Shown: positions 30,071 through 49,771 of the stretch, piece by piece
Position numbering within the stretch: position 1 is the first letter of the stretch
Layout: every line of letters begins with the position of its first letter
IMG/VR virus record: IMGVR_UViG_3300036819_000014
Location: 1 to 50,072 of that record
Length of the DNA stretch: 50,072 nt
Direction: 5' to 3' (one strand)
Source: a virus
Translations under genes and position numbers: made by a program
Notes under the pieces: model-generated
Told to the model about the DNA's origin: nothing
What the model saw: only the letters and a program-made list of their open reading frames with translations
Databases searched by the model: none

Positions 30071-30088
30071 TAGATGGGAGGAGAACGC

Positions 30089-33000
30089 ATGGACTTTTAT
30101 CAGATCAAGGAACGCGAAACGAAGACTGGTCTAGAGGTATATCCTGACTTCGTGGTGAAACGTTCGAAAGATCTGATGGTACGTGGTCGTTCTTTCTACG
30201 CCATCTGGGATGAAGAGGCGGGACTATGGAGCACGGATGAGTACGAGGTTCAGCGTCTAGTCGATGCTGAGCTATATGCTCACGCAGATAAGCTCCAGAA
30301 GAATGGCGGTGATTCGGTATATGTCAAGAGTCTCGGTAGTTTCGGGTCACGAGCATGGTCGGATTACCGCAACTACATCAATCAACTATCAGATTCAAGT
30401 GTTCAGCTAGACGAGAGTCTTGCGTTCGCCAATACCGAAGTCAAGAAGACTGACTATGTCTCACGAAGGCTGCCATATTCTCTGGAAGCTGGAGACATCA
30501 GCGCTTATGATGAACTCATCGGGACGCTCTATATTCCGGAAGAGCGTGAGAAACTCGAATGGGCAACTGGCGCGATCGTTGCTGGCGACGCAAGACATAT
30601 TCAGAAGTTCATCGTACTGTATGGCGAGGCTGGCACAGGAAAGTCGACGTTCCTGAACATCTTGCAGCAGCTTTTCGATGGGTATTGCACCAACTTCGAA
30701 GCCAAAGCTTTGACAGGTGCGAACAACGCATTCTCGACTGAAGTATTCAAGTCGAACCCGCTAGTAGCAATTCAGCACGACGGTGATCTTAGCAAGATCG
30801 AAGACAACACGAAACTGAACTCGATTATCAGTCACGAGCTGATGACGATGAACGAGAAGTACAAGCCGTCATATTCGGCGAGGATTAACTCGTTCTTGTT
30901 CATGGGTACAAACAAGCCAGTGCGGATCACGGACAGCAAGTCGGGCATTATTCGAAGGCTTATCGATGTGCATCCGTCAGGAGATCGTGTAACACCGAAG
31001 CGATATTCCACACTGGTTGCGCAGATTGATTTCGAAATCGGTGCTATTGCCCAGCATTGTCTTGACGTTTACCGAAGCTTGGGAAAGAACTATTTCTCAG
31101 GCTATAGGCCAATCGAGATGATGGTACAGACTGATGTGTTCTACAACTTCATGCTGCAGTACTATGACGTCTTCAAGGCTTACGATGGCGTCTCGCTTAG
31201 TCAGGCTTACAAGCTTTACAAGCAGTATTGCGAAGAAGCTCAGATAGAATACAAGCTTCCGCGGCATAGGTTCTCGTCTGAGATCCGGAACTATTTCGAA
31301 GGATTCAGCGACAGAACTACAATCGAGGGTGAGGAAGTCAGAAGCTGGTATCATGGCTTCAAGACTGACAAATTCAAGACAGTTGAACTGATTCTGGAGG
31401 CGCCAGTCACGCTAGTCATGGACGAGTATGAATCCATATTTGACACTGTGTGTGCTGAACAACCGGCGCAGTATGCCAATGAGGATGGCACTCCGAATCA
31501 GAAGTGGGCTAACATAACTACAAAGCTGAAGGATCTTGACACGACGCAAATGCATTATGTCAAGCCAGGACTTCAGCATATCGTTATCGACTTTGATCTG
31601 ACAGACGATCAGGGTAAAAAGAGTCTTGAGAGGAATCTGGAGGCAGCCAGCGGCTGGCCGAAGACGTATGCTGAGTTTAGTAAAAGCGGTTCCGGCGTTC
31701 ATTTGCATTATATTTACGACGGTGACGTTACAAAGCTGAGCAGCATATTCAGCGAAGGCATAGAGATCAAGGTGTTCTCAGGCGATGCCTCACTGCGCAG
31801 AAAGCTTTCGAAGTGTAACAATATTCCAATAGGAAGGATCAACGGCAGCCTTCCTTTGAAGGAGAAGCGCGTGATCGATGCCGACACGATCAAAAGTGAG
31901 AAGGGATTGCGCACTCTTATTCTGCGTAATCTTCGTAAGGAGATTCATCCTGGAACTCGGCCGAGTATCCAGTTCATCCACAAGATCCTCGATGACGCAA
32001 GCAAATCTGGGCTGATCTACGATATCAGTGACTTGCGAAGCAGCATTCTGGCATTCGCGAACAACTCCACCAACCATGCGATGTACTGCATCAAGATGGT
32101 TATGGACATGAAGTTCAGCAGCGAGCCGAAGGAAATTGCGGAAAAGCCCCCGGAGCCAAAAGACAATCGACTAGTCTTCTTCGACGTCGAAATATTTCCG
32201 AATCTTTTCGGAGTCTGCTGGAAATTCGAAGGCGATACGAATGTCGTCAAGATGCTAAATCCATCGCCGCAAGCTATCGAGAATCTTATCAAGCTGAAGC
32301 TTGTCGGATTCAACAATCGAAAGTACGACAATCATATTCTGTACGGCCGGATGATGGGTCTGGACAATCAGAAGTTGTACGAGCTTTCGCAGAAGATCAT
32401 CAACGGCGGAACTGCCCAGATGTTTGGCGAGGCGTACAATCTGTCGTATGCTGATATCTACGATTTCAGCAGTGTTAAGCAAGGTCTGAAGAAGTTCCAG
32501 ATCGAGCTTGGGCTTAATCACAAAGAGCTCGGACTGCCTTGGGATCAGCCCGTGCCCGACGACATGATCGAAGAAGTGCTTAACTACTGTGCGAACGACG
32601 TGATCACTACGGAGCAGGTCTTCGATGATCGCAAGCAGGACTTCGTCGCACGTCAGATTCTGGCCGAATTGTCAGGCCTAACTGTTAACGACACAACGCA
32701 GAAGCATACTGCCAAGATCATATTTGGCACAGATAAGAAGCCGCAGGAAAAGTTCAAGTACACGAATCTTGCGGATCGCTTCCCTGGCTATATTTACGAT
32801 TTCGGGAAGTCCACTTACAAGGGTGAGGAAACGGGTGAAGGCGGCTATGTTTATGCTGAACCTGGTATGTATACCAATGTCGCGGTTCTCGATGTGGCTT
32901 CGATGCATCCTACATCAATTGAGATCCTTGACCTTTTCGGTCCGTACACTCAGAATTTCAGCGATCTCAAGAGTGCGCGTATCGCGATCAAGCGGCGTGA

Positions 33001-33826
33001 CTTTGAGAGTGCGCGTAAGATGCTTGGCGGAATCCTGGGACCGTATCTTGGCTCCGATGACGACGCGAAGGCACTTTCTTACGCGCTTAAGATCGTCATC
33101 AACATCGTTTACGGGCTAACTTCGGCCTCGTTCGACAACCCATTCCACGATCCGAGAAACAAGGACAACATCGTCGCTAAGCGCGGTGCCTTGTTCATGA
33201 TCGACCTGAAGGAAGCCGTGCAGCACAAGGGCTTTAAGGTCGTTCACATTAAAACGGACTCGATCAAGATTCCTGACGCAACTCCGGAGATTATCCAGTA
33301 TGTGATGGATTTCGGAAAGGAATACGGTTACGAGTTTGAGCACGAGGATACTTACGAGAAGTTCTGTCTCGTGAATGATGCCGTGTACATCGCCAAGAAG
33401 ATGTCTGATCCCTGGGCTGCTGACGCCGAAGTCGACAATGCCAAGTTGTGGACTGCCACAGGGGCGCAGTTCCAGCACCCGCACGTCTTCAAGACGCTGT
33501 TCAGTAAAGAACCACTAACATTCCAGGACCACGTCGAAACTAAGACGGTTAAGACTGCGCTATATTTGCAGTTTGGCGAAAACGAGCCGCACTTCGTCGG
33601 AAAGGCCGGAGCATTTGTCCCGGTCATTAATGGCGGAAAGCTGCTCCGAGTAGCAACTGACGGAAAATTCCACTCGGCTTCCGGTGCCAAGAACTATCTC
33701 TGGCATGAAGCTGACGTGACGAAGAGCTCGAATCTCGAGATAGACAAGTCGTATTTCGTTAAACTTGTCGACGATGCAAAAGACAACATATCCAATTACG
33801 GCGACTTCGAATGGTTCGCCAGTTAG
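30089..33826 (+). CDS. Fused SF3 helicase, AEP primase and family B DNA polymerase
   Basis: 1245 aa. ATG 30089 has GGGAGGAG at normal spacing; ATG 30074 precedes that site. SF3/D5-like helicase: Walker A GEAGTGKST (~180), VAIQHDGDL (~225), LFMGTNKP (~270). AEP-like primase: VIDFDL (~498), SGSGVHLHY (~533), GIEIKVF (~557). Family B polymerase: ExoI FFDVEIF (~697), ExoII FNNRKYDNHIL (~741), ExoIII YCANDV (~832), motif A LDVASMHPTSI (~934), motif B KIVINIVYGL (~1000), motif C IKTDSIKI (~1054). It could unwind, prime and copy DNA alone. All catalytic motifs appear intact; AEP is the least certain module. Confidence 0.85.
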   Translation: MDFYQIKERETKTGLEVYPDFVVKRSKDLMVRGRSFYAIWDEEAGLWSTDEYEVQRLVDAELYAHADKLQKNGGDSVYVKSLGSFGSRAWSDYRNYINQLSDSSVQLDESLAFANTEVKKTDYVSRRLPYSLEAGDISAYDELIGTLYIPEEREKLEWATGAIVAGDARHIQKFIVLYGEAGTGKSTFLNILQQLFDGYCTNFEAKALTGANNAFSTEVFKSNPLVAIQHDGDLSKIEDNTKLNSIISHELMTMNEKYKPSYSARINSFLFMGTNKPVRITDSKSGIIRRLIDVHPSGDRVTPKRYSTLVAQIDFEIGAIAQHCLDVYRSLGKNYFSGYRPIEMMVQTDVFYNFMLQYYDVFKAYDGVSLSQAYKLYKQYCEEAQIEYKLPRHRFSSEIRNYFEGFSDRTTIEGEEVRSWYHGFKTDKFKTVELILEAPVTLVMDEYESIFDTVCAEQPAQYANEDGTPNQKWANITTKLKDLDTTQMHYVKPGLQHIVIDFDLTDDQGKKSLERNLEAASGWPKTYAEFSKSGSGVHLHYIYDGDVTKLSSIFSEGIEIKVFSGDASLRRKLSKCNNIPIGRINGSLPLKEKRVIDADTIKSEKGLRTLILRNLRKEIHPGTRPSIQFIHKILDDASKSGLIYDISDLRSSILAFANNSTNHAMYCIKMVMDMKFSSEPKEIAEKPPEPKDNRLVFFDVEIFPNLFGVCWKFEGDTNVVKMLNPSPQAIENLIKLKLVGFNNRKYDNHILYGRMMGLDNQKLYELSQKIINGGTAQMFGEAYNLSYADIYDFSSVKQGLKKFQIELGLNHKELGLPWDQPVPDDMIEEVLNYCANDVITTEQVFDDRKQDFVARQILAELSGLTVNDTTQKHTAKIIFGTDKKPQEKFKYTNLADRFPGYIYDFGKSTYKGEETGEGGYVYAEPGMYTNVAVLDVASMHPTSIEILDLFGPYTQNFSDLKSARIAIKRRDFESARKMLGGILGPYLGSDDDAKALSYALKIVINIVYGLTSASFDNPFHDPRNKDNIVAKRGALFMIDLKEAVQHKGFKVVHIKTDSIKIPDATPEIIQYVMDFGKEYGYEFEHEDTYEKFCLVNDAVYIAKKMSDPWAADAEVDNAKLWTATGAQFQHPHVFKTLFSKEPLTFQDHVETKTVKTALYLQFGENEPHFVGKAGAFVPVINGGKLLRVATDGKFHSASGAKNYLWHEADVTKSSNLEIDKSYFVKLVDDAKDNISNYGDFEWFAS

Positions 33827-38654: not shown

Positions 38655-39116
38655 ATGCCGTCCAATCTCGAAAAGCATGCTGAGTACGAGCTCAAGCTAC
38701 TCGATGAAGAGCCTGAGATCGTCGAGATGTACATGAATGTTGTCCGTGCGTTCAGCGCATTCGGCCACTCTGGCGGATCGGCAATGGTCGCCATCCCGGT
38801 CATCACGAGGCTTCTCTCGTACGAGAACCTGTCGCCACTGACTGTCGAGAAGGACGAGTGGATCTATCACGATCAGCGTCATGGCAACGTCTGGCAGAGC
38901 ACGCGAAACTCGAAGATGTTCTCGACTGACGGCGGAAAGACATATTTCAACGTCGATGAAGGTCTCCTGGAGTCCGGTGAACGTCGTCTATATTACTCGA
39001 CGGACCTGGAGGAGGCGAACTGGATCTTCAAGATTGGCGAAGATCTCGTCGAGATTACGCATGCTCAGATGGCCGAGATCCGTGCGCTGGTTGATTACCA
39101 GAATCGTCTCGACTAA
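38655..39116 (+). CDS. Conserved phage hypothetical, 153 aa
   Basis: ATG after GAGGAGTTATATTT. The N-terminal helical region (EKHAEYELKLLDEEPEIVEM) ends by residue ~60. The C-terminal beta domain has DEWIYHDQRHGNVWQSTRNS, KMFSTDGGKTYFNVDEGL and MAEIRALVDYQNRL, similar to small beta-rich phage proteins that carry a W-Q-x-x-R-x-S...F motif. Function unknown. Confidence 0.6.
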   Translation: MPSNLEKHAEYELKLLDEEPEIVEMYMNVVRAFSAFGHSGGSAMVAIPVITRLLSYENLSPLTVEKDEWIYHDQRHGNVWQSTRNSKMFSTDGGKTYFNVDEGLLESGERRLYYSTDLEEANWIFKIGEDLVEITHAQMAEIRALVDYQNRLD

Positions 39117-39301: not shown

Positions 39302-39474
39302 ACGACGCAATTCTGCAGCATCTCAGGAACACCGCATTTCTCCAGCTAGTCAGGGAGATGCGATGGAAATCTGATGATGCTGCGTTGGTCGTAGGACTAT
39401 CGCGAGCGGATGCTACAAGGCTCGCCGGTGTAATAGCGGCCGAAAGAAAGATCGACCCGATCGAGTTGTTCTAA
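39298..39474 (+). CDS. Putative HTH mini-protein, 58 aa
   Basis: ATGA overlap with the previous gene. VREMRWKSDDAALVVGLSRA then DATRLAGVIAAERKIDPIEL reads as a compact helix-turn-helix. It could be a transcriptional regulator. It ends just before the cloverleaf-like RNA region. HTH assignment by eye only. Confidence 0.45.
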   Translation: MNDAILQHLRNTAFLQLVREMRWKSDDAALVVGLSRADATRLAGVIAAERKIDPIELF

Positions 39475-39510
39475 CTCGTCTGAGCGAGTATAAACAGGCA
39501 CTTAGGCTCA

Positions 39511-39650
39511 GAGCGGCTGGTGGTGGCGCAATCTGGTAAATCCGTCGCAGTCATATCCTGGAGGGATGACGGTAACTCCAGCTTCTTACCGAGAGCCTTA
39601 AACTCAATGTGATAAGGCCACCAGCATGGCAGTAGATTCCGCTGCCTATA
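39511..39650 (+). ncRNA. Cloverleaf-like structured RNA candidate
   Basis: Closing stem gctggtgg/ccaccagc (39516-39523 with 39618-39625) surrounds four arms: ggcg/cgtc (39525-39528 with 39543-39546, loop with TGGTA), gtcat/atgac (39550-39554 with 39566-39570), ggtaa/ttacc (39571-39575 with 39586-39590) and gcctta/taaggc (39595-39600 with 39613-39618). A ggcag/ctgcc hairpin follows (about 39628-39646), just before the next ribosome site. It has tRNA-like topology but no T-loop consensus, so it is not a canonical tRNA. No open frame of note. Confidence 0.45.
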
Positions 39651-44034: not shown

Positions 44035-44186
44035 AGCGCATAGTAAGAACTGTCATGCTGCTATGTATCAGTGTCTGCACGTGCGGCATATTCCTAGTGA
44101 ACATCATACCGCTGCAATGGGCATTCGGTGCGATCGTCATTGTCGCTGTCATGGCATTCGTGCTTCTTATGCTGTCTGAGCAATGA
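44031..44186 (+). CDS. Small membrane protein, 51 aa
   Basis: ATGA overlap at both ends. Two hydrophobic segments: MLLCISVCTCGIFLVNIIPL and AFGAIVIVAVMAFVLLML. Basic N-terminus. Coupled to the helicase gene. Function unknown. Confidence 0.55.
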   Translation: MKRIVRTVMLLCISVCTCGIFLVNIIPLQWAFGAIVIVAVMAFVLLMLSEQ

Positions 44187-45373
44187 CAACAGACACAGTC
44201 ACTCTGTTCCCCATAGCATATTCGGAGGAACTGCAATTGTTCCCGAATCTCGGTAAGCATCAGAAAAAGGCTGTCGCAGAACTCAAGAACGGATCAATTC
44301 TCAAAGGCGGTGTAGGAACAGGAAAGTCTCGTACGGCTATCGCATATTACTGTCAGTTCGCACCATGGATTCCGCTGTATATTATTACGACAGCGAAGAA
44401 GCGTGACACAGCTGACTGGGAAGAAGAGTGCAAGGCATTCGGGATAGTGCCAGTCGTTGACTCGTGGAACAACATGATGAAGTACGAAGACGTGACTGAC
44501 GCGTTCTTCATATTCGACGAGCAACGACTGGTTGGCTCGGGTGTCTGGGTTCAGGCGTTCATCAAGATCGCTCGTAAGAACAACAAATGGATTCTGCTAT
44601 CTGCGACTCCTGGTGATAGCTGGATGGATTATATTCCAGTGTTTATCGCGAACGGGTTCTACAAGAACCGTACTGAATTCATTCGCAGGCACGTAGTCTT
44701 CAATCAGTTCAGCAAGTATCCGAAGGTAGACCGGTTCCTCGATGAGTCAATTCTCAAAGCGCTTAGGCGAAGAATTCTGGTAGAGATGCCGTATGAGCGC
44801 CACACAGTCCGGCACGTGAAAGATGTGTACTGTGAGTACAATCGCGATCTCTATGATCTGGTCGTGAAGAAGCGGTGGAACTTCATCGAGGAAAGACCGA
44901 TCAGGCAGATAGCCGAGATGTTCTCGCTGATGCGAAGAGTCGTGAACTCGCATGATTCTCGTATTGAGAACGTCGGTAATTTGATGAAGACTCACAAAAG
45001 GATCATCATATTCTACAACTTCGATTACGAATTGGAGAAACTAAGAGAGCTTGACGTTCCACTGGCTGAGTGGAACGGCCACAAGCACGAGGAAATACCT
45101 GACGGAGACGAGTGGGTTTATCTCGTTCAGTACGCCGCCGGAGCTGAAGGATGGAATTGCATCTCGACAGACGCGATGATATTCTACTCGATGAACTACT
45201 CTTACCGAGTCTACGAGCAAGCTCAAGGCCGAATCGACCGTCTCAACACTCAGTACACTGACTTGTATTACTACAGATTCAGGAGCTCGAGTATGGTCGA
45301 CAATGGTGTAGCTATGGCACTCGAAAGTAAAAAAGACTTCAATGAAGGAGATTACTACAAGAAAGCTGTCTGA
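44183..45373 (+). CDS. SNF2-like DEAD-box-type helicase
   Basis: 396 aa. Walker A GGVGTGKSRTA (~42-52), motif II FDEQ (~110-113), motif III LLSATPGDSW (~137), and C-terminal motifs including AEGWNCI and QAQGRIDRLNTQ (~344-355), which resembles the arginine-finger motif VI. Compact superfamily 2 helicase or translocase, like phage SNF2 proteins used in replication or recombination. ATGA-coupled to the upstream membrane gene. The target is not deducible. Confidence 0.85.
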   Translation: MTTDTVTLFPIAYSEELQLFPNLGKHQKKAVAELKNGSILKGGVGTGKSRTAIAYYCQFAPWIPLYIITTAKKRDTADWEEECKAFGIVPVVDSWNNMMKYEDVTDAFFIFDEQRLVGSGVWVQAFIKIARKNNKWILLSATPGDSWMDYIPVFIANGFYKNRTEFIRRHVVFNQFSKYPKVDRFLDESILKALRRRILVEMPYERHTVRHVKDVYCEYNRDLYDLVVKKRWNFIEERPIRQIAEMFSLMRRVVNSHDSRIENVGNLMKTHKRIIIFYNFDYELEKLRELDVPLAEWNGHKHEEIPDGDEWVYLVQYAAGAEGWNCISTDAMIFYSMNYSYRVYEQAQGRIDRLNTQYTDLYYYRFRSSSMVDNGVAMALESKKDFNEGDYYKKAV

Positions 45374-45420
45374 TTGAAAACGGACAGCTCTCGAAGCGAT
45401 CGGACATTCGGTATATTCCC

Positions 45421-45597
45421 GACGTCAAAACGGCAAAACTAATGGGTCAATAAAAGTCGCTCAGTGAAATACTTTATACTAGTCAATTTATAGTATATAC
45501 TCTATATTTTCAGCTAGGTATATACTACTTCTTGACTAGTATAAAGTATTCTACGGAGCGTCTTTATATGGGGGCTTAGTTTTGCCGTTTTGACGTC
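45421..45597. repeat. 177-bp imperfect palindrome with TAGTATA motifs (candidate origin)
   Basis: Three perfect inverted-repeat tiers share one centre at 45509: 20 bp (45421-45440 with 45578-45597), 19 bp (45468-45486 with 45532-45550) and 10 bp (45491-45500 with 45518-45527). The intervening 27-nt arms are equal in length and match at 16 positions. TAGTATA occurs four times inside (45475-45481 and 45521-45527 inverted; 45491-45497 and 45537-45543 direct). AT-rich core. Origin, resolution site or bidirectional terminator are possible. Confidence 0.7.
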
Positions 45598-45630
45598 TAG
45601 CTATTTTCCATCCAAAGAAAAAGGGACAAA

Positions 45631-46140
45631 GTGCTACCGCAGGACATGAACAACCGTCTATGGTCTAAAGTGGATGAATTTCCTGATTACTCGTTCAGTG
45701 ATCGTGGTGATGTGTGGAACCAGATCTCCAACAAGGTTATATCTCCATCGAAGGTTAACGGCACAGGTTTCAAAGTCAATCTCCGACGAGACGGAAGGAA
45801 CTGTGTTCGGTCTCTATCCACGATGGTGTGCCGAGCATTCCACGGTGAGCCAGAGAAAGATCACGTTGTTATATTCCGAGACAACGATCAGACGAACTGC
45901 CAAGCCGACAATCTATATTGGGGCACACGATCTCAGGCATACGATCGTCTTCGGCAGTCCAAGCGAAACGGAGTTCCACTTCGAACTATACCAGTCATGC
46001 ATCTCGAGACCGGTAAAGTATATTCCAACACTCTCGAAGCCGCTAACGCTGTCGACGGAATCGAAGAGTATATCGTCGTCGCTGCTGCCGATCCGAAATT
46101 TGCATTCTACCGAGGACAGTGGACTTGGGTTAAAGGCTAA
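45631..46140 (+). CDS. HNH homing endonuclease with NUMOD4 domain
   Basis: 169 aa from GTG 45631 with AAAGGGA upstream. NUMOD4 at the N-terminus (WSKVDEFPDYSFSDRGDVWN, SLSTMVCRAFHGE). The HNH core KDHVVIFRDNDQTNC then ADNLYWGTRSQA departs slightly from the usual HH pair. A NUMOD1-like C-terminus (VMHLETGKVYSNTLEAANAV) follows. Free-standing homing endonucleases copy themselves by cutting unoccupied sites; it lies between the palindrome and further TAGTATA repeats, suggesting insertion there. Confidence 0.8.
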   Translation: MLPQDMNNRLWSKVDEFPDYSFSDRGDVWNQISNKVISPSKVNGTGFKVNLRRDGRNCVRSLSTMVCRAFHGEPEKDHVVIFRDNDQTNCQADNLYWGTRSQAYDRLRQSKRNGVPLRTIPVMHLETGKVYSNTLEAANAVDGIEEYIVVAAADPKFAFYRGQWTWVKG

Positions 46141-46142
46141 AG

Positions 46143-46161
46143 TAGTATAAGGTAGTATAAG
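46143..46161. repeat. Tandem TAGTATAAG repeats after the HNH gene
   Basis: TAGTATA at 46143-46149 and 46153-46159, 10-bp period, same 7-mer as in the palindrome on the other side of the HNH gene. Together these would be six copies, iteron-like. The rest of the gap to 46245 shows nothing else that I can name. Confidence 0.5.
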
Positions 46162-46245: not shown

Positions 46246-46572
46246 ATGGCTAACATAGAGAGCCGATTCCAGGCAGAGATCATCAAGGACATCCGCAAGA
46301 TGTTCAACGGCTGCATCATACTCAAGAACGACGCATCATATCTTCAGGGCGTTCCGGACTTGCTGGTCTTGTTCGGAACCACCTGGGCAGCTCTTGAGTG
46401 CAAGGCAAACCCGCGAGCATCAAGGCAGCCGAATCAAGACTATTACGTAGCGAAGTTGAACGACATGTCTTTCGCTGCATTTGTCTTCCCGGAAAACAAG
46501 GACGATATTCTCCATGGACTTCAACTCGCATTTCGATCTGCGAGGAAAGCACGCATTTCTCAGCGCGTCTAA
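46246..46572 (+). CDS. VRR-NUC / PD-(D/E)XK nuclease
   Basis: 108 aa with AAGGAGG upstream. MANIESRFQAEIIKDIRKMF supplies the leading Glu helix; GVPDLLVLFGTTWAALECKA gives PD...ExK (Asp ~38, Glu51, Lys53). VRR-NUC-type enzymes cleave branched or flap DNA. Located with helicase and Cas4-like genes, it likely acts in recombination or Holliday junction resolution. It overlaps the next gene by 59 nt. Confidence 0.75.
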   Translation: MANIESRFQAEIIKDIRKMFNGCIILKNDASYLQGVPDLLVLFGTTWAALECKANPRASRQPNQDYYVAKLNDMSFAAFVFPENKDDILHGLQLAFRSARKARISQRV

Positions 46573-47068
46573 CTATCACTGGATCAATTACGATGCTGTG
46601 AAGCTAGACGAGGTTTACCGTAACTCGCTTGCCGCGATGCACGGAACAGAACTCCACGCGTTCGCTCACGAAGCCATTCGTCTCGGCATCAAACTTCCGA
46701 AGACGCAGAAGACACTGAACATGTACGTGAACGACGCAATCGGCTATCGCATGAATCCCGAGCAGATTCTATATTACTCGGACAACTGTTATGGTACCGC
46801 TGATGCTATTAAGTATCGTAACAATCTTCTTCGCATCCACGACCTCAAGACTGGTGTCAATCCTGGATCGGTGCATCAGCTTGAGGTCTATGCGGCTATA
46901 TTCTGCCTCGAGTATGCAATGCGTCCTGGCGAGCTTGAGATTGAGCTTCGCATATATCAGAATGATGAAGTCATCGAGTTCAATCCCGAACCCGAAATTA
47001 TCATCAAAATCATGAGCACTATTATATCTTTCGACAAGCGGATCGAACTTCTCAAGGCTGAGATCTAA
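46514..47068 (+). CDS. Cas4/AddB-like PD-(D/E)XK exonuclease
   Basis: 184 aa from ATG 46514. GKHAFLSASNYHWINYDAVK, GTELHAFAHEAIRLGIKLP, then the catalytic part GTADAIKYRNN (Asp ~97) and LRIHDLKTG (Asp ~110, Lys ~112), followed by VHQLEVYAAIFCLEYAM, the QxxxY motif. Members trim DNA ends in recombination. It lacks the Cys cluster of true Cas4. Common in siphophages beside polymerase and helicase genes. Confidence 0.78.
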   Translation: MDFNSHFDLRGKHAFLSASNYHWINYDAVKLDEVYRNSLAAMHGTELHAFAHEAIRLGIKLPKTQKTLNMYVNDAIGYRMNPEQILYYSDNCYGTADAIKYRNNLLRIHDLKTGVNPGSVHQLEVYAAIFCLEYAMRPGELEIELRIYQNDEVIEFNPEPEIIIKIMSTIISFDKRIELLKAEI

Positions 47069-47086: not shown

Positions 47087-49771
47087 GTGGTAATTGACGA
47101 AGACTCATATTTGATGCACTACGGTGTTCTTCGCAGATCGGGTCGCTATCCATGGGGATCGGGAAATACTCCTTACGAGCGCAGTTCCGGATTTCTCGGC
47201 GCAGCGGACGATCTCAAACGACAGGGACTTAGCGAAGTTGATATCGCTAAAGGTCTCGGTCTCGACTCAACAACACAGCTTCGTGCTGTACGCGCAATCG
47301 CGAAGAATCAGGTTCGTGCCGCTGATTCCGCTCAGGCTCTTCGTCTGAAGAACAAGGGCATGAGCAATGTCGCCATCGGTCAGCAGATGCATATTAACGA
47401 ATCATCGGTTCGTTCTCTGCTTGATCCTGCACTCGCAGACAAACGCGATATTCTGCAGACAACGGCGAACCTGCTTAAAGACAAAGTCGGAGAAGACGGT
47501 TACCTAGACATCGGATCGGGAACCGAGAACAACCTGTCTATATCTCAGACTAAGCTCGCGACCGCAGTTGAGGTTCTGAAGGAAGAAGGATATGAGGTCC
47601 ACAACGTCCAGGTCACTCAGCTGGGAACTGGAAACAAGACCACTATCAAAGTCCTTGCGCCTCCAGGCACAACCTATCGAGACATCGTCCGCAACCCATC
47701 GAACATCAAAAGTGTTGCTGCATATTCTGATAGTGATGGCCGAGACTATACGCCAGTCAAGCCTCCCGTTGGCATTGATCCTGATCGTGTGGGCGTGCGC
47801 TTTGCCGAACAAGGTGGAACCAACGCTGACGGCGTCATCTACGTACGCCGCGGCGTTTCTGACGTCTCGCTAGGCACAGCAAAATATGCTCAGGTTCGGA
47901 TCAAGGTCGGCGACGACAACTATCTTAAAGGCATGGCAATGTACAACGACGATATGCCAGAAGGCGTTGACTTGTTGTTCAACACGAACAAGAGTGAATC
48001 AAAGGGCAAGATCGGTGCCATGAAGCCGATCAAGGACGACCCTACGAATCCGTTCGGTGCCATCACCCGGCAGAAAACATATGTCGACAGCGATGGCAAA
48101 GAGAAGCAGTCGGTCATGAATATCGTCAATGAAGAAGGCGATTGGAAAGACTGGTCTCGTACACTGTCAAGTCAGATGCTGTCCAAGCAGGATCCGGCTT
48201 TGGCTAAGAAGCAACTTGATATTGCATACAACTCAATGAAAGACGAGTTTAGCACGATCAAGGGACTGACAAATCCTGTCGTCAAGAACAAGCTTCTGTC
48301 ATCGTTCGCCGATGGTGCTGAATCAGCTTCGGTCCATCTCAAGGCCGCTGCACTTCCGAGTCAGGCAACGCATGTTATATTGCCACTTGAGAAAATAAAA
48401 GAGAACGAAGTCTATGCGCCGAACTATCCAGACGGAACTCGTGTAGCCCTAGTTCGATTTCCTCATGGTGGAACATTCGAGATTCCAGAACTCACCGTTA
48501 ACAATAAGAACTCAGAAGCAAAGTCCAGTATCGACCGAGCAGTCGACGCTATCGGTATCCATCCGAAGGTTGCGTCTCGCTTGTCTGGTGCGGACTTTGA
48601 CGGTGACACAGTTCTGGTTATTCCGAACAATGACAAGAAGATTCGCACATCGCCGCCACTCAAGGATCTAGAAGACTTCGATCCTCAGTCTGCCTATCCA
48701 AAATATGATGGCATGAAAGTGATCTCGCCTCGTGCCAAGCAACAGCAAATGGGCGACGTTTCGAATCTGATTACGGATATGACAGTCAAGGGTGCTAAGC
48801 CAGAAGAACTGGCACGAGCAGTCAAGCATTCTATGGTTGTCATTGACTCTGAGAAGCATGAGCTTAACTACAAGCAGTCGTATACCGATAACGGTATCGC
48901 TAGTCTCAAAGCAAAATATCAGGGTGTCGGTGAGACCGGTCGTCTTAAAGGCGCATCCACCATCATCTCCAAGTCTGGTAACGCCACAGTCAAGGTTCCT
49001 GAGCGCCGTCTTCAGAAAGCTAGTGAAGGCGGTTCTATAGATCCGGTTACCGGTAAGAAAATATACCGTGAGACTGGCGCAACCTACACAGACAAGACTG
49101 GCAAGACACGACAGAAGCTGTCTGATAGCAAGCCACTGCTAGAGACTGATGATGCATTCACCCTGTCGTCTGGAACGGCCATGGAGAATATCTATGCCGC
49201 ACACAGCAACAAGCTGAAGGCATTGGCAGACAGTGCAAGGAAAGCTAGCCTTAGTACTGGAAGCCAAAAATCATCCCCCACCGCTAAGAAAACGTATGCC
49301 TCACAGGTAGACAGCTTGAATGCCAAACTAAACACGGCCCTCAAGAACAAGCCTAAAGAACGGCAGGCGCAGCTTCTAGCAAACGCCATAGTCTCAGCGA
49401 AGACCCAGGACAACCCTGGCATGGAGTCGGCTGACCTCAAGAAGGTCAAGGGTCAAGCACTCACAACTGCAAGAAACAGAATTGGAGCACAAAAGGAAGT
49501 TATTGACATCACACCTGATGAGTGGACTGCTATCCAAGCAGGTGCTGTGACTGCTAACAAGTTGTCATCAATCATTGACAATGCTAATCTAGATCAAGTC
49601 AAGGAACTAGCAACACCTAAGACTAAGCTAGAGGTCACACCAGCTAAGCTAGCAAGAGCTCAGTCGATGCTCGATTCTGGTTACACACAGGCAGAGATCG
49701 CTCGTGCCCTTGGCATTCCTACTTCAACACTCAACGAAGCAATACTTGGTGAAGGAGCGTACAGTGGCTGA
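47087..49771 (+). CDS. Putative single-chain RNA polymerase-like protein with HTH domains
   Basis: 894 aa from GTG 47087 (AAGGAGGT). A tag-like opening (LMHYGVLRRSGRYPWGSG) is followed by two HTH modules (~30-75 and ~78-113; NKGMSNVAIGQQMHINESSV), then a lysine-rich beta segment (YLKGMAMYNDDMPEGVDLLF then NTNK, ~283-306) and AIGIHPKVASRLSGADFDGD then TVLVIP, ending about 513. ADFDGD at 502-507 is the metal-binding signature of double-psi beta-barrel polymerases. AKQQQMGDVSNLITDM and a C-terminal HTH (~855-890) follow. Polymerase activity is inferred from the motif. Confidence 0.6.
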   Translation: MVIDEDSYLMHYGVLRRSGRYPWGSGNTPYERSSGFLGAADDLKRQGLSEVDIAKGLGLDSTTQLRAVRAIAKNQVRAADSAQALRLKNKGMSNVAIGQQMHINESSVRSLLDPALADKRDILQTTANLLKDKVGEDGYLDIGSGTENNLSISQTKLATAVEVLKEEGYEVHNVQVTQLGTGNKTTIKVLAPPGTTYRDIVRNPSNIKSVAAYSDSDGRDYTPVKPPVGIDPDRVGVRFAEQGGTNADGVIYVRRGVSDVSLGTAKYAQVRIKVGDDNYLKGMAMYNDDMPEGVDLLFNTNKSESKGKIGAMKPIKDDPTNPFGAITRQKTYVDSDGKEKQSVMNIVNEEGDWKDWSRTLSSQMLSKQDPALAKKQLDIAYNSMKDEFSTIKGLTNPVVKNKLLSSFADGAESASVHLKAAALPSQATHVILPLEKIKENEVYAPNYPDGTRVALVRFPHGGTFEIPELTVNNKNSEAKSSIDRAVDAIGIHPKVASRLSGADFDGDTVLVIPNNDKKIRTSPPLKDLEDFDPQSAYPKYDGMKVISPRAKQQQMGDVSNLITDMTVKGAKPEELARAVKHSMVVIDSEKHELNYKQSYTDNGIASLKAKYQGVGETGRLKGASTIISKSGNATVKVPERRLQKASEGGSIDPVTGKKIYRETGATYTDKTGKTRQKLSDSKPLLETDDAFTLSSGTAMENIYAAHSNKLKALADSARKASLSTGSQKSSPTAKKTYASQVDSLNAKLNTALKNKPKERQAQLLANAIVSAKTQDNPGMESADLKKVKGQALTTARNRIGAQKEVIDITPDEWTAIQAGAVTANKLSSIIDNANLDQVKELATPKTKLEVTPAKLARAQSMLDSGYTQAEIARALGIPTSTLNEAILGEGAYSG

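Follow-up and report, generated by a model that had tools for sequence, protein, structure and literature searches.

Among SF3 replicons, P4 and the staphylococcal SaPI satellites use iteron origins. Those of SaPI consist of iterons flanking an AT-rich core, in which we know of no long perfect dyad, and P4 replication needs two sites, ori and crr. The SV40 origin is composed of dyad-symmetric initiator sites by an AT tract, and its large T antigen is an SF3 double hexamer. In the Sulfolobus plasmid pRN1, a 100-bp stem-loop whose shape is conserved but whose letters are not was genetically tested as an origin, suffices in cis and works when moved, and a pRN1-like stem-loop origin was proposed for phage BIP-1 as well (PMC4234260). 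The initiator of P4, the alpha protein, is a helicase-primase whose winged helix binds repeats (PMC4234260).

The viral DNA analysed here, hereafter the window, is a stretch of 50,072 nt in which all genes are oriented rightward and which contains a long palindrome. Since SF3 replicons use iteron or stem-loop origins and this element has both features, it is taken as a replication origin: judging from sequence comparison, it probably serves as the only origin in this phage and in a large set of relatives. The likeness to pRN1 lies in an SF3-helicase replication protein with a winged helix and in a stem-loop kept in shape, not in letters. In contrast, the pRN1 origin has no iterons and is shorter, and the replication gene immediately precedes it, whereas the phage element, which is a candidate origin, has iterons and longer arms, with the replicase gene about 11 kb away in the window and also distant in the named phages. 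With SaPI Pri-Rep1, the phages share a D5-type SF3 initiator, a class found here by profile and fold, including a match of the N-terminal part of the replicase to PDB 7ola, described as SaPI5 primase-helicase (E 1.4e-4); the SaPI initiator, however, has no polymerase in the same chain. The likeness to P4 is a match of the same N-terminal part to TIGR01613 (P4-family primase C-terminal domain; E 4e-14), although below the curated cut-off, and one site is seen in the phages here versus two in P4. SV40, compared by plan rather than by sequence relation, resembles the element in its dyad-symmetric initiator sites beside an AT tract and its SF3 helicase, but the SV40 origin is much shorter. No replication origin annotation was found at this site in the records consulted for Arthrobacter, Gordonia, Streptomyces, Rhodococcus, Microbacterium and other phages, nor a published origin for these phages in the literature searched.

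The palindrome occupies a noncoding interval between a helicase gene and an HNH endonuclease gene, and the features of the window considered below are as follows (strand given for genes).

30074-33826, plus strand: replicase joining a D5-type SF3 helicase to a family B DNA polymerase, and proposed as the initiator
44183-45373, plus strand: SF2-type DNA helicase, left neighbour
45374-45630: noncoding helicase-to-HNH interval holding the element, 257 bp, from the ORF list (GC 0.37 versus 0.52 for the window)
45421-45597: palindrome, candidate replication origin, with arms 45421-45500 and 45518-45597
45421-45442: left outer arm, a perfect 22-bp block that carries the iterons GTCAAAA (45424) and GGCAAAA (45432)
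45449-45548: AT-rich centre, candidate unwinding region, 74% AT
45468-45486: left middle arm, 19 bp perfect, AATACTTTATACTAGTCAA
45491-45500: left inner arm, 10 bp, TAGTATATAC
45518-45527: right inner arm, pairs with 45491-45500
45532-45550: right middle arm, pairs with 45468-45486
45576-45597: right outer arm, carrying the iterons TTTTGCC (45580) and TTTTGAC (45588) at a spacing of 8 bp
45631-46140, plus strand: HNH endonuclease, right neighbour, missing from many relatives
46246-46572, plus strand: VRR-Nuc-type endonuclease (same name in related records)
46481-47068, plus strand: Cas4/RecB-type exonuclease
47087-49771, plus strand: single-chain RNA polymerase of the RdRP/YonO-like two-barrel type, with a DFDGD motif and a terminal HTH

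Elsewhere in the window, a Pistol self-cleaving ribozyme at 39474-39528 (plus strand) scores over the Rfam gathering threshold, and the product of 38655-39116 (plus strand) matches Tad3, a type I Thoeris inhibitor (Pfam E 1.7e-30), and is likely encoded by an anti-defence gene.

A 177-bp concentric palindrome with a single centre at 45509 had been described in a sequence-only reading of this DNA, and both arm pairing and exact mirror partners bear it out. Its 80-nt arms, separated by a 17-nt spacer, are 80% complementary, with 64 of 80 positions paired; at the same arm length and loop, the window averages 20 pairs (sd 4.1) and its second-ranked site reaches 38. When scored as an ungapped palindrome, the 45509 site reaches 40, the second-best site of the 50 kb having a score of 17.5. 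The lengths first given for the perfect middle and inner arms (19 and 10 bp) are correct, but the outer block measures 22 bp and not 20; similarly, the stretches between outer and middle arms are partly complementary, with about half of the positions matching, but are 25 nt long instead of 27. The AT-rich centre is one of the two AT-richest 100-bp stretches of the window (tied with 49926), the overall AT content of which is 48%. The motif TAGTATA occurs six times in the window versus 1.4 expected, and its distribution is as initially stated, with four copies inside the palindrome, two per orientation, and two past the HNH gene at 46143 and 46153. It is the iterons, the AAAACTTTT boxes and the AT-rich centre that are conserved, rather than this motif. 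The two copies outside the palindrome, 10 bp apart (46143-46159, plus strand), lie between the HNH and VRR genes and are possibly promoter-like. An exact search of viral contigs with the middle-arm 19-mer gave no match, and the hits of the outer-arm 17-mer were set aside, the 64 contigs that it matched being unrelated and having no inverted partner nearby.

Relatives were gathered by a helicase search, which provided 80 viral loci, most with the same gene order, and recurrence was counted by an ungapped palindrome scan of 81 non-redundant loci. Ungapped scores and an expected count were used because raw fold energies across relatives are confounded by GC content, and the sequence past the polymerase gene was left out, as it holds a separate class of GC-rich hairpins. 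In 58 of the 81 loci, versus 8.0 (sd 2.6) expected, the top palindrome fell in noncoding sequence between the helicase and the HNH or VRR gene, as it did in 22 of the 22 loci with a palindrome score of at least 18, so that the palindrome recurs in relatives at the matching interval. Intact neighbours without a palindrome had been named as the contrary case, which applies only in part: in 23 of the 81 relatives the best palindrome does lie elsewhere, yet all 23 are weak. The second class of long hairpin is a different element, found near the genome end, mostly GC-rich and devoid of iterons; it lies past the polymerase gene in L003, L004, L033, L040, L045, L046 and L069.

A noncoding gap of 290-470 bp precedes the HNH or VRR gene in named phages of Gordonia, Rhodococcus, Streptomyces, Arthrobacter, Microbacterium and Curtobacterium. 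Most of these gaps follow the same plan, which was seen in Gordonia, Rhodococcus, Streptomyces, Arthrobacter and Microbacterium phages, with letters that differ between lineages while the shape is kept; repeat-rich candidate elements are also present in Bifidobacterium and saliva phages. The location of the element depends neither on the helicase gene nor on the block of VRR, Cas4 and RNA polymerase genes. Lewando, Synepsis, DizzyRudy and Qui have their helicase gene kilobases off, and the element still precedes VRR, and in the genomes G008 and G009 it is found between the helicase and HNH genes, with Cas4 and RNA polymerase about 8 kb away, past the structural genes. Since this design is kept despite changed neighbours, the element is more likely to function by itself, as DNA. 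In either arrangement it still lies next to one of two linked blocks, and a regulatory role is therefore possible. The Bifidobacterium phage BitterVaud1 was discarded as an independent case without RNA polymerase, the gene being found at the opposite end of the record.

From the outside in, the commonest plan comprises TTTTGNC-related iterons, AAAACTTTT or AAAACTTT boxes and an AT-rich inner palindrome, all mirrored on the other side, and the lineage-specific iteron forms include TGCCCACTT, TGCCACTTT and GGTCAAATCT. Within each genome, iteron k-mers hardly occur outside the element, as illustrated by AAGTGGCA in pSs2407 (7 of 7 copies), AGATTTGAC in Chikenjars (4 of 4) and AAGTGGGCA in Lewando (5 of 5). 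Only two TTTTGNC iterons per arm occur in the window, multiple short repeats at one site being clear in relatives. Of the 20 sequences scanned for repeat density in 400-bp stretches, 10 have their maximum at the element (the fetched genomes of Chikenjars, Lewando, Synepsis, DoctorPepper, DizzyRudy, Heisenberger, Qui, G008, G013 and G016), whereas another stretch is denser in repeats in Secretariat, Bilo, Poco6, pSs2407, Daddyjeff and the window. A second repeat-dense stretch in G008 (31751-32150) was rejected as a further element, being collagen-like coding sequence. In 12 of 12 comparisons, the GC content of the element is below that of the genome.

The relatives checked carry a replicase predicted to join a D5-type SF3 helicase to a family B polymerase, and this protein was found in 12 of the 13 records searched with it, the exception being a 14-kb fragment. 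In the window, the replicase is laid out as a D5-type SF3 helicase (about residues 160-345), a winged-helix-like region (about residues 347-429) and a C-terminal family B DNA polymerase. Its N-terminal part also matches phage primases, and a primase-like stretch at about residues 469-554 is indicated by a weak phrog match and by eye only. The structural model (mean pLDDT 66) resembles NrS-1, ASFV PrimPol, Mpox E5/vaccinia D5 and SaPI5 PriRep1 in Foldseek searches, and residues 347-429 are modelled as winged-helix-like, mostly with a pLDDT of about 80, with a weak Pox_D5 match (E 0.024). In BitterVaud1 (L307 9972-14602), the replicase is split, its helicase and polymerase parts occurring as separate genes.

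A replication origin is favoured by the single site per genome, the inverted iterons, the AT-rich centre, the neighbour-independent position and the D5-type SF3 replicase of the relatives. Of the three functions first suggested for the palindrome, namely an origin, a resolution site and a source of long double-stranded RNA, the origin is thus the best supported and is held as a candidate. The cumulative GC skew of the window peaks near the palindrome (about 45.5 kb), and the skew drops across the element in most relatives, being usually lower on its right than on its left, a sign opposite to that of a classical bidirectional origin. GC skew therefore does not mark the element as such an origin; all genes run one way.

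The main rival to an origin is a transcription control region at an early/late boundary, with operators and a promoter that would drive the downstream block and may be the only one used by the phage RNA polymerase, which we view as conceivable and rather unlikely. Genes run rightward across the element, structural genes come after it in G008 and G009, and the RNA polymerase gene, which carries HTH motifs, is close by in most genomes; in addition, the iterons could serve as operators, and a promoter-like TATAATG, recognized by its letters, follows the element in several Arthrobacter phages. A directional promoter, however, does not need mirror symmetry, and promoters seldom take the form of one site per genome flanked by long dyad arms. 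The two-barrel RNA polymerases of phage P23-45 recognise numerous short promoter motifs instead (PMC10770324), and no good sigma-70 promoter above chance was found in the element of the window. The RNA polymerase at 47087-49771 may be packaged in the virion, because the corresponding Poco6 protein has been labelled structural on the basis of similarity to phage 1706. In pSs2407 (L086 10746-10907), a short frame outside the RNA polymerase gene matches polymerase residues 554-614.

The predicted single-strand fold of the palindrome is highly stable (-89.6 kcal/mol, z -13, equalled by 0 of 200 shuffles), as would suit an RNA-level element in which a very long hairpin acts as a terminator, an RNase III target or a source of double-stranded RNA. 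Selection on one RNA strand would leave G-U rather than A-C mismatches, yet the arms of 27 non-redundant palindromes display 29 G-U versus 26 A-C mismatches (p 0.79). The lack of a G-U excess speaks for a site in DNA and against an RNA hairpin, and leaves the long double-stranded RNA proposed earlier unsupported. Among fourteen Gordonia relatives, 97.6% of cells are paired and 3 pairs are altered on both sides; pairing falls to 38-53% when the partner is slid by 1-3 columns, a flattering control since the structure was derived from the same alignment. Complementarity is maintained, without sign of strand preference. With no Rfam match at the palindrome and no intrinsic terminator (a G+C-rich hairpin followed by a T run) within it, a function in RNA appears improbable.

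A cruciform cut by the neighbouring VRR-Nuc or HNH nuclease, that is, a resolution or recombination site, is hardly to be expected either. A perfect dyad is capable of extrusion and a structure-cutting nuclease family is encoded alongside in most genomes, but nothing favours resolution: the VRR-Cas4-polymerase block is far from the element in G008 and G009, many relatives have no HNH, lineage-specific iterons are unnecessary for cutting, and hairpin ends are not needed, because Poco6 has annotated cos ends. Palindromic mobile repeats exist, but a mobile repeat or functionless chance remnant is very improbable for a single copy in a constant place, with pairing conserved across genera despite diverged letters.

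As a replication origin, the element might represent a type used across the whole family, which we propose tentatively, combining lineage-specific iterons with a long cruciform-capable dyad and served by a single chain of initiator, SF3 helicase and family B polymerase. The replicase would bind the inverted iterons of the outer arms by its winged-helix domain, and the dyad symmetry would allow two helicase rings to assemble face to face. The AT-rich inner palindrome would then melt, or form an extruded cruciform, and so make single strands available for priming. Both forks would be started by the polymerase carried in the same chain as the helicase. With a defined site and a likely initiator, origin mapping, initiator binding and the swapping of repeats between lineages become directly testable, and would reveal how an all-in-one SF3-polymerase replicase begins replication.
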